Position numbers and translations under genes: made by a program. DNA of 34,976 nucleotides. Source: a bacterium (GTDB taxonomy: Bacteria > Pseudomonadota > Alphaproteobacteria > Rs-D84 > CACZYB01). This document shows, in pieces, positions 5,562 to 27,891 of the stretch; positions within the stretch are counted from its first letter, which is position 1; each line of letters begins with the position of its first letter. A model generated the notes under the pieces. It saw nothing but the letters and a program-made list of their open reading frames with translations. It searched no databases and was not told the DNA's origin. The DNA is taken from assembly GCA_014803575.1 (NCBI GenBank), contig JAAVBO010000008.1, positions 1 to 34,976 on the forward strand, in the 5' to 3' direction.

Positions 5562-5595
5562 TAAAAAAAACTCCCCGATATGGGGAATTTTTTTA
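5562..5595 (-). terminator. terminator of the phase-variable Cys-rich gene
   Basis: CTCCCC pairs with GGGGAA around a GATAT loop, with A- and T-runs on both sides. It directly follows the stop codon of the minus-strand gene ending at 5593. Confidence 0.75.
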
Positions 5596-6334
5596 CCAGG
5601 TGTAATTTTTGCTTACGCATTTTTTCATTACACCGTTTCCGTCGTAAATACATTTTTCTCCGGTGGTTTTGTTGCAAACTACTTGGAACTTGCCACCTTC
5701 ACCTATGCCTATACCGCTGTTCATATACCATTTAGCTGCTTTTTTATGAGTATCTTCGGCACAGTATTTTGAATGACCTTTATATGGGTCTCCAAAAAAG
5801 TCGTTGCCACATGTGTATACGGTATTCCATTTTAATTTAGATGTTGTTTTTTCTTTGGTATATTTTGTTGCATAACCGTAATATACACGCATTTCAGAAC
5901 AGGAGTTGCAAGCGCATCCACCGTAGTTAGCTTGATATGTACCATTTTCACAGGTAGTGCAAGATGTGATATAACCACCTTTTGAGTAAGTTCCTGGGGA
6001 ACATTGTTTACATACATAGGAAGGACTGCAACCACCGGAATAAGAATTATAATATCCTGCTCTACAATTTAAAGTATTTCTGGTAATTGTTGTAGTACTG
6101 CAACCACCGGAACTTGTTGTAGTATTTTTGATACAATAGGAAAATGAATTTAATGTATATCCTGATTTACAAGATGTAGATTTTCCGGTTATTGGATTGC
6201 AATTTGTTGCGAATGGGTCTCTTGTAGTGCAAGGTTTACAGGAATAAAGAGTTACAGCATTGGCTGGATTATTTAGACAAATACCCCCCCCCTGTCAAAA
6301 CTATTACGGTCAACAAGGATTTATTGAGAATCAT
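5593..6334 (-). CDS. Cys-rich secreted protein, phase-variable; frame OFF in this sequence (C9 tract)
   Basis: From the ATG at 6334 (ribosome-binding site AAGGAAAGGA upstream) the frame reads MILNKSLLTVIVLTGGG and then hits a stop 22 codons in, just after nine consecutive G (C9 at 6284-6292 on the plus strand). In the frame ending at 5593 a long ORF is open up to 6294. Removing one base from the tract joins the two and gives a 246-aa protein. Its start is a textbook signal peptide ending ...NNPANA before V-T-L-Y, a signal peptidase I site. The mature part has many cysteines in C-x-x-C, C-x-S-G-Y and G-G-C-x repeats, then a C-terminal domain of ~100 residues. The repeats resemble the partial gene at 2-871. 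Surface or secreted function is likely; the exact role is unknown. A sequencing error in the homopolymer is the main alternative. Confidence 0.8.
6284..6292 (-). repeat. poly-G(9) contingency tract inside the signal-peptide codons
   Basis: Nine C on the plus strand (nine G in the coding strand) within the first 17 codons of the gene ending at 5593. Lengths of 8 or 11 keep the gene in frame; 9 and 10 truncate it. Confidence 0.85.
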
Positions 6335-6606: not shown

Positions 6607-6635
6607 TTGACAAATGTATATATTTGGGTTAAAAT
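6607..6635 (+). promoter_or_regulatory. promoter of the VanX-like gene
   Basis: TTGACA (6607-6612), exactly 17 nt, TAAAAT (6630-6635). It is a useful local reference: the phase-variable promoter at 7666 has the same two boxes with a 15-nt spacer. Confidence 0.8.
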
Positions 6636-6667: not shown

Positions 6668-7600
6668 ATGAAAAAAGGTGTAAAATTATATTCTGATTTT
6701 CAAAAAATGGGTATAGATCCGTTTAAGATGTTTGTTGGCAGGGAGTATGAAATACTTATTCCACTTTCTGGGCTTGACAGATTGAGCTATACTCCGGCGT
6801 ATGAAAAGGATTACAGGGAGTTGGGTATACTTGATATGACATATTCCGTAAATCCTACTATGTATGTCAGTATGTATATTCTTAACAAGCTTGCGAAGAT
6901 TTTTGATGTGAAGTTTCGTGTTATAGAGGCTTGGCGTCCGTTTGAAATTCAAATGGCGAAATATGAGGCGGAGCAAAAGAAGAACCCTGGGTCAACTTTG
7001 TTTTTAAAGCCAGATAAAAATGTTGGTATGCCACACATTTGCGGTGGTGCGATTGATTTGTTGATGACTGATTCCTACGGTAGACCATTTACTCAGCCAA
7101 AGTGGTTATTAAGAAAACATCCTGAACTTTTAAAGCAAATAAAGGCTTTGAATTCCGATTTTGATAATGTAAACAATCCTTTCTTTACTACTCATATGGA
7201 ACCGTTGGAGAATGCGGATAAGGATTTGAAACTTTCCGTTTTAAATGTTGATATATTGCGTTTGATGGTGTCATCAATTTTGAACCTTCGTCATATAAAT
7301 GATGAAAATTGGCATTTCCAACTTGCTGATAGTGATGAGGAGTATTTGCCTTCGTTTAAAAATATTTCCATCAGTGATGTAAGGAATACTTCTCCTTCTC
7401 ATATTGAAAGAGTGAAAAAAGAAGTGACTGATTTTGCAGAGCGTGTGTTCGGTGTATTTTATGACAGGGAGTTTGTGAAAGGTCAAAAGCATAACTATAC
7501 AACATCCGAATTTAAAAAGGAAGATGTTATGACACTTGATGAATTAAAGAAAAAAGTTAATAACCTTATCGTTATGCAACAAAATATTTTATCAAGATAA
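6668..7600 (+). CDS. D-Ala-D-Ala dipeptidase-like M15 peptidase (VanX/DdpX family)
   Basis: A 310-aa protein with the M15D signature: 'E87-A-W-R90-P', zinc ligands H123 and D130 in 'MPHICGGAID', then catalytic E213 and ligand H216 in 'ENWHF'. VanX-type enzymes hydrolyse D-Ala-D-Ala. There is no signal peptide, so it is probably cytoplasmic, as VanX is. No ligase or lactate dehydrogenase of a resistance cassette is nearby, so recycling of cell-wall dipeptide is more likely than glycopeptide resistance. The C-terminal ~70 residues extend beyond the minimal family core. It has its own promoter and a ribosome-binding site (AAGGAG). It sits between the two homopolymer switches. Confidence 0.82.
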   Translation: MKKGVKLYSDFQKMGIDPFKMFVGREYEILIPLSGLDRLSYTPAYEKDYRELGILDMTYSVNPTMYVSMYILNKLAKIFDVKFRVIEAWRPFEIQMAKYEAEQKKNPGSTLFLKPDKNVGMPHICGGAIDLLMTDSYGRPFTQPKWLLRKHPELLKQIKALNSDFDNVNNPFFTTHMEPLENADKDLKLSVLNVDILRLMVSSILNLRHINDENWHFQLADSDEEYLPSFKNISISDVRNTSPSHIERVKKEVTDFAERVFGVFYDREFVKGQKHNYTTSEFKKEDVMTLDELKKKVNNLIVMQQNILSR

Positions 7601-7617: not shown

Positions 7618-7655
7618 AAAGAGGGGGTATAAGTTTTATATCCTCTTTTTTTTTT
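7618..7655 (+). terminator. terminator of the VanX-like gene
   Basis: AAAGAGG (7618-7624) pairs with CCTCTTT (7642-7648), with an inner TATAA/TTATA extension and a long T tract. It ends just before the -35 box of the next promoter. Confidence 0.8.
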
Positions 7656-7665
7656 GTTTTTTTTC

Positions 7666-7692
7666 TTGACAAAATTTGGGGGGGGGTAAAAT
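7666..7692 (+). promoter_or_regulatory. phase-variable promoter: G9 tract between -35 and -10
   Basis: -35 TTGACA (7666-7671) and -10 TAAAAT (7687-7692) flank a 15-nt spacer that is AAATTT plus nine G (7678-7686). Spacing changes with tract length: 9 G gives 15 nt, 11 G gives the 17 nt used by most promoters here. This is the arrangement of known slipped-strand switches such as Neisseria porA. Confidence 0.8.
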
Positions 7693-7723
7693 AGGATATA
7701 GTTTAATAATAGAGGAGAAAAAA

Positions 7724-8296
7724 ATGGAAGAATCAATTAAAGACTTTTTTGCAAAAGCATATCCTGATAGAAAACTTACTTATTTTGTAAGTAATGATGA
7801 CTATGTATATCGTTATGATGAAACTTTAAAGTCTATAAGATTTCATTATCATGATTTGTTTTATAACAGCAATCATAGAGAAGTTTTTGAAAGTAAAGAA
7901 GAGGCGATGGAATATGTTAAAAAAAACAAAAAATATTTAGGCTTTTTCCATATAGATGTTAAGACAGAATTTCCAAAGGATGCTATGCCTAAATCTTTTA
8001 TAACACATGGGGAAAATAATTATATCGGTAAACTTTTGACTAAGAAAGAAGTGGAAGCTCTTCAAGATGATCCTGCAACTTCTTTCCTTTGTTTAAGATT
8101 GAGAACTTTGGATTCTGTTATAAAGAGGAGTAGCAATCCGGAATATGTGCCAGATGTGGAAACTTATGTTCAATCTTTTTCGGACGGGCAAGTGTATCCT
8201 GTTTTCAAGTATGAGAAAGTTTTGGATAAGGACCTTAATCAAATATATCCTGTGAATGATATGGTCGTTGAAAAGTTAAAGGGTGAATCTAGGTAA
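7724..8296 (+). CDS. hypothetical cytoplasmic protein under a poly-G promoter
   Basis: 190 aa, starting MEESIKDFFAKAY. The frame is open back to 7676, but that part lies in the promoter; the ATG at 7724 has a strong GAGGAG ribosome-binding site. No family recognised. The protein is soluble, rich in Lys, Asp and Tyr, with no signal peptide, membrane segment or obvious catalytic motif, and ends ...KGESR. It is a single-gene transcript between the promoter at 7666 and the terminator at 8298. The only functional clue is that its promoter looks phase-variable. Contingency control is usually applied to surface components, modification enzymes or restriction-type systems, so a cytoplasmic protein here is unexpected. 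Confidence 0.8.
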   Translation: MEESIKDFFAKAYPDRKLTYFVSNDDYVYRYDETLKSIRFHYHDLFYNSNHREVFESKEEAMEYVKKNKKYLGFFHIDVKTEFPKDAMPKSFITHGENNYIGKLLTKKEVEALQDDPATSFLCLRLRTLDSVIKRSSNPEYVPDVETYVQSFSDGQVYPVFKYEKVLDKDLNQIYPVNDMVVEKLKGESR

Positions 8297-8297
8297 A

Positions 8298-8326
8298 AAA
8301 AATCCCCTCGGACCTGAGGGGTGTTT
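8298..8326. terminator. bidirectional terminator
   Basis: CCCCTC and GAGGGG around GGACCT, with A and T runs on either side, between two convergent unknown genes. Confidence 0.8.
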
Positions 8327-27861: not shown

Positions 27862-27891
27862 ATTATATTAACAAAAAAAAACAATTGTCAA
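27862..27891 (-). promoter_or_regulatory. promoter of the radical SAM gene
   Basis: TTGACA (27891-27886), 18 nt including nine T, TATAAT (27867-27862) on the minus strand. Confidence 0.65.

Follow-up and report, generated by a model that had tools for sequence, protein, structure and literature searches.

The 190-aa protein gene at the center of this analysis lies on the forward strand of the window, i.e. the whole 34,976-nt stretch of DNA that was analysed, and is preceded by a promoter whose spacer carries nine consecutive G residues (Table 1). Intrinsic terminators bound the gene on both sides, so that the G9 promoter is the sole sigma-70-like promoter of a single-gene unit. The product of the upstream gene matches the D-Ala-D-Ala dipeptidase model NF007557 weakly and under the cut-off (E 8e-5). 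For the 190-aa protein no Pfam or NCBIfam family was found, and a fold search with the predicted model, which is of moderate confidence (pLDDT 74.8), gave no match. The protein has no evident signal peptide and thus does not share the surface exposure of porA/tp0126-type products. A search for RNA elements found none at the promoter, and only tRNAs within the window. As a separate observation, 21 of the 32 window proteins end in Lys or Arg (including those ending at 7600, 8296, 8330, 14990, 15565, 21179, 22009, 22896, 31248 and 32370), with -SR, -KSR, -KQK and -KQR as frequent C-terminal ends, and K+R comprise 13% of residues. These ends may represent either a C-terminal tag or a composition effect.

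Table 1 Features of the G9 promoter and its surroundings, in window coordinates.
Feature	Position	Strand	Remark
Coding region of signal-peptide protein, broken by C9/G9 tract	5593..6334	-	gene start 6334
Second tract, C9 on + / G9 on -	6284..6292	-	42 nt past start codon of exported-protein gene
Ordinary promoter of upstream gene	6607..6635	+	same boxes, 17-nt spacer
Upstream gene, 310 aa	6668..7600	+	weak D-Ala-D-Ala dipeptidase match
Intrinsic terminator between upstream gene and G9 promoter	7618..7650	+	15-pair stem; RNA fold -14.4 kcal/mol, z -2.66
-35 hexamer TTGACA	7666..7671	+	sequence; 6/6 match
Non-G part of spacer, AAATTT, 6 nt	7672..7677	+	sequence
G9 homopolymer touching -10 box	7678..7686	+	sequence; G9 in both G004 homologous promoters
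-10 hexamer TAAAAT	7687..7692	+	sequence; TAAAATAGGATATAG kept in both G004 homologues
Shine-Dalgarno-like AGAGGAG	7711..7717	+	sequence
Gene of 190-aa protein, controlled by G9 promoter	7724..8296	+	no Pfam/NCBIfam family
Intrinsic terminator 3' of 190-aa gene	8304..8321	+	monocistronic unit

The arrangement TTGACA-AAATTT-G9-TAAAAT at 7666-7692 is as the earlier note had described it, with a homopolymer inside the spacer and a total -35 to -10 distance of 15 nt, and the homopolymer thus occupies the same place as in porA/tp0126-type promoters. A pattern search identified the TTGACA at 7666-7671 as the only TTGACA...TANAAT in this genome with a G run. The Shine-Dalgarno AGGAG is followed by the ATG at 7724, 31 nt past the -10 box, a geometry that is usual for the promoter class described below. 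The neighboring promoter at 6607-6635 has the same two boxes in the form TTGACA-N17-TAAAAT, again as claimed. The usual spacer optimum of sigma-70 promoters is 17 nt, and by standard rules spacers of 15 or 18 nt are rated poor.

When this genome and 58 relatives were searched (59 in all), the only other genome with the 190-aa gene was G004, a sister species of the same genus, which encodes three tandem paralogues (72, 30 and 31% identity) that likewise adjoin the 310-aa neighbor. Two of the copies are preceded by TTGACA-AAATCGCC[T/G]A-G9-TAAAATAGGATATAG (L007:1976 and 2723). The -35 box, the G9 tract, the -10 box and the bases after it are unchanged relative to the window promoter, whereas the non-G part of the spacer measures 10 nt rather than 6 nt. 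Alignment with related genomes, proposed in the earlier note as a check, thus supports the retention of G9 in both homologues and not that of the spacing, which is 19 nt there versus 15 nt in the window. Consequently, a two-step change to 17 nt would run in opposite directions in the two species. In G004, the third copy and the 310-aa neighbor have T9 spacers, and an unrelated gene (L135) has TTGACA-AAATCTTCT-G9-TAAAAT with 18 nt. T8-T10 spacer runs (TTGACATT..T9-GTTTA..) are common in the genus (L007:349-384 and 1362-1389; window 27862-27891); they look structural because their spacing is 16-19 nt and some of the runs are interrupted.

At a window GC content of 31.5%, G9 runs are expected by chance about zero times in 35 kb. 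In the whole genome (1.12 Mb, ~31% GC), pattern searches, on which all genome-wide counts rest, returned 27 G/C runs of at least 8, compared with ~0.7 from an independent-base estimate, which is the strong over-representation associated with SSR contingency loci. Twenty-two of the runs are exactly 9 and two exactly 8 nt long, and the exact G9/exact G8 counts in four genomes are 22/2, 31/4, 121/10 and 106/3. G004 has 45 such runs of at least 8, and the congeners G001, G002, G003 and G005 have 1 to 3 each. Mismatch repair damps mononucleotide slippage, but its loss was rejected as the cause of the runs since this genome encodes MutS. Dispersal of G9TAA on a mobile element was also rejected, as the contexts of the runs share only G9-TA(A) and are otherwise different.

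Several features recur around the runs. TA directly follows a G8+ run at 25 of 27 sites in G000 and 40 of 43 in G004 (65 of 70 together), independently of promoter, coding or intergenic context. G9 also occurs in the loop of G/C-rich palindromes, e.g. GCGCACCCCTA-G9-TAAGGGGTGCGCC (L097, L102, L120, L126, L136, L144 and L146 in G004; L028 and L032 contexts), some of which are preceded by a second small hairpin. At L131, L139, L123, L133, L043 and L140 the run is adjoined by a TTGATTTTACA-like motif or the reverse complement thereof, frequently ~20 nt before a TTTACA-N17-TATAAT promoter; such runs are a possible upstream-site spacing switch.

The same tracts are found in coding regions. The C9 at 6284-6292, which the earlier note did not include, lies 1.4 kb from the promoter G9; the gene is out of frame at the assembled length, and a tract of G8 or G11 opens a frame of 246 aa. 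Many runs in G000 and G004 come after the initiation codon of a gene for an exported protein. Of the 30 genes of these two genomes with an N-terminal tract, 25 are out of frame at the assembled length and 5 are in frame; 21 of the genes open at a length of 8/11, six at 9/12 and three at 7/10. The frames past the break are intact for up to ~700 codons, which favors reversible frame switching, or at least opposes decay. The coding tracts, that at 6284-6292 included, therefore have the properties of SSR frame switches, i.e. a position near the gene start, a frame that depends on tract length and an intact remainder. In the relative G008, mid-gene G9 tracts are mostly in frame.

Of 190 genomes belonging to the same order, 41 contain TTGAC-N6-13-G8+, compared with only two of ~237 genomes elsewhere in the taxonomic class. 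A reversed-pattern control was near zero in the order (one relative gave 73 raw matches versus 0 reversed), which rejects a chance promoter match. With TANNNT after the run there are ~48 sites in G008, 17 in G009, 23 in G127 and single sites in other genera, and full promoters are present in 11 of 13 genomes checked. In a set of 87 unique sites, dominated by these three genomes, in which the run touches TANNNT, the tract is G9 in 72 (83%), G8 in 7, G10 in 5 and longer in 3, as read from assemblies with one genome per species; lengths of 8 to 12 occur among the promoters of relatives. The spacers are 15 nt in 22 promoters, 16 in 8, 17 in 2, 18 in 40 and 19 in 11, the non-G part has two frequent lengths of 6 or 9 nt, and an SD-preceded ATG mostly follows 20-46 nt past the -10 box. 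Spacing of 17 nt is depleted, occurring in 2 of 48 run promoters versus 15 of 35 ordinary TTGACA promoters (Fisher p 1.9e-5), where the control is a small set from the same DNA (35 sites with 15-19 nt spacers in the test, 37 by another count, 17 being the commonest). C-runs are also present in promoter spacers; hence the strand does not matter, and strand-specific recognition of G was rejected. A further motif, TTTGTCAA, stands after the -10 box, where it is the inverted counterpart of TTGACAAA in the -35 box (L155:12829, L216:1501, L211:1501 and other G008/G172 promoters); this inverted repeat is a possible operator.

Proteins encoded downstream of the class promoters are nearly all mutually unrelated, indicating that the arrangement recurs independently. 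Matches above the NCBIfam cut-offs comprise dCTP deaminase and DapB, both with promoters at G9, and weaker matches comprise NDK, CMP kinase and PurN. Further targets are lipoproteins and OMP_b-brl/Opacity-type outer-membrane barrels, so that some other members of the class do encode surface-exposed proteins. In G080, two paralogous barrel promoters with near-identical flanks differ in carrying G9 and G8. A search of viral contigs for copies found none. The earlier note had regarded a non-surface target as unusual for a contingency locus; instead, a mostly cytoplasmic and unrelated set of downstream proteins is typical of this promoter class.

The exact placement of the tract and its recurrence before dozens of unrelated genes make it look like a lineage-wide slippage-prone dial. 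A slippage switch or dial of the porA/tp0126 type is the most likely reading of the G9 promoter, with a probability of roughly 0.6. Here, G9 would be a slippage-prone repeat within a sigma-70-type spacer, and the promoter would belong to a large set specific to this lineage. Replication slippage would alter the number of G residues, and this number would in turn shift the distance and helical phase between the -35 and -10 boxes and hence transcription of the 190-aa gene. One slip at the window tract would change the spacing from 15 to 14 or 16 nt, and the addition of two G would give 17 nt. Output is predicted to be low at G9 (15 nt) and higher with one or two additional G (16 or 17 nt), in keeping with the prediction of the earlier note, by analogy, that 9 G is low and 11 G high at this promoter. 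G9 seems to be the length at which tracts throughout the class come to rest under mutation, because it dominates both the promoter sites and the coding sites with differing opening frames. Presumably, the remaining spacer bases are selected such that the resting state (15 or 18 nt) misses the 17-nt optimum, and single slips would then change expression.

The phase-switch reading of the earlier note stands in part. The tract in the spacer, its retention in G004, the order-wide class and the coding frame switches support it, whereas the uniform G9, the 15/18 clusters and the metabolic targets do not; MutS, the in-frame mid-gene runs of G008 and the G004 spacing of 19 nt also count against a dial. 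Further evidence for the dial comes from the terminator-bounded unit, the depletion of 17-nt spacers and the unrelated downstream proteins, and the G9/G8 pair of G080 and the range of 8 to 12 G among promoters bear indirectly on changes of length. The strikingly uniform length and the metabolic targets in particular speak against an antigen switch that is simply ON or OFF. Since dCTP deaminase and DapB have promoters at G9, this length can hardly mean 'off' everywhere, and with metabolic genes among the targets a stochastic dial seems a better description than strict ON/OFF switching of an antigen. The uniformity may be exaggerated, as a consensus assembly would show the commonest length of every site.

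The uniform G9, the two spacing clusters, the G004 spacing of 19 nt and the metabolic targets make a promoter class of fixed geometry a live alternative. In this alternative, G9 would be a structural or recognition element of a lineage-specific class with spacings of 15 and 18 nt, acting for example through A-like DNA geometry or a bound protein, its length hardly changing. Such an element would account for the predominance of G9 (72 of 87) in two sharp spacing classes, for the contact of the tract with the -10 box in all 87 promoters and for the near absence of runs of length 8. Furthermore, in some G8 promoters (G008 C48, G096) the non-G part is one base longer and the 15-nt spacing is kept, and control of metabolic genes would fit. 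It does not readily explain, however, why the modal G9 followed by TA is also seen in coding sequence that is out of frame, a place in which one would not expect a promoter, why C-runs occupy spacers too, or why lengths of 8, 10, 11 and 12 do occur in promoters. On balance the fixed element is unlikely. A further-reaching proposal, that the whole order uses TTGACA-N6 or N9-G9-TANNNT as a dedicated architecture with a constant G9, not mainly as a switch, in dozens of promoters per genome with metabolic genes included and 15 or 18 nt spacing, is less likely than not and is put forward tentatively. If true, the G tract would be recognized by RNA polymerase or by a partner of it, or else stochastic tuning of genes other than antigens would be tolerated throughout the genome.

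A neutral product of lineage mutational bias, with the G runs having no regulatory role in promoters or gene starts, would fit the runs in intergenic palindromes and mid-gene and the way G9 seems to be an attractor whatever the context. Yet the strong TTGAC/TANNNT placement, the near-zero control and the 17-nt depletion are unexpected without selection, and the runs are lacking in congeners (1-3 of at least 8 in G001-G003 and G005), which renders this origin improbable. An assembly or sequencing artefact, with G9 as the consensus of miscalled homopolymers of other true lengths, might be suspected as all genomes appear to be assemblies and a single length dominates, but it is the least credible explanation given tract contexts conserved across independent genomes and species, normal A/T runs and other reading frames, and relatives without tract promoters.

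The slippage dial, if correct, would extend a known device. A few pathogens are already known to carry a homopolymer in a promoter spacer, in each case at individual promoters of antigen genes. In the present order of bacteria with small genomes the arrangement reaches regulon scale: the richest genomes have ~17 to 48 such promoters, and these stand before ordinary cytoplasmic and metabolic genes. A literature search found no papers on the G-tract promoters of this lineage, and the papers searched described neither this scale or lineage nor such a gene set or 15/18 spacing pattern. Either slippage-based bet hedging reaches well past surface antigens, or a promoter class exists with non-standard spacing.

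The tracts of Campylobacter jejuni lie mainly inside surface-modification reading frames, and promoter-spacer tracts are not the main class there. The C. jejuni phasome resembles the present case in that a small genome holds tens of poly-G/C tracts, most of which are frame switches; 29 poly-G/C loci of 7 or more are given for NCTC11168 (PMC4965091). In porA of Neisseria meningitidis, as here, poly-G lies in a spacer of sigma-70 type; 11G is high there, 10G 2-fold lower and 9G 13-fold lower (PMC3639595), and 9 G is predicted to be low here as well. Unlike porA, a single locus for an outer-membrane antigen with strong between-isolate variation, the present class comprises dozens of promoters seen in one genome per species, drives mostly cytoplasmic proteins and belongs to a different bacterial class. 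In Treponema pallidum, poly-G between the -35 and -10 boxes precedes tp0126, an OmpW homologue, where the spacing optimum is 17 nt (PMC7864442). Some members of the present class drive OMP_b-brl/Opacity barrels and in this are like tp0126/tprE/G/J/L, although the latter belong to a spirochaete and concern outer-membrane proteins only. The tprL tract ranges over 7-11 G, with 9 G predominating within isolates (PMC7864442), and overlaps the -10 box, whereas the tract described here lies within the spacer.
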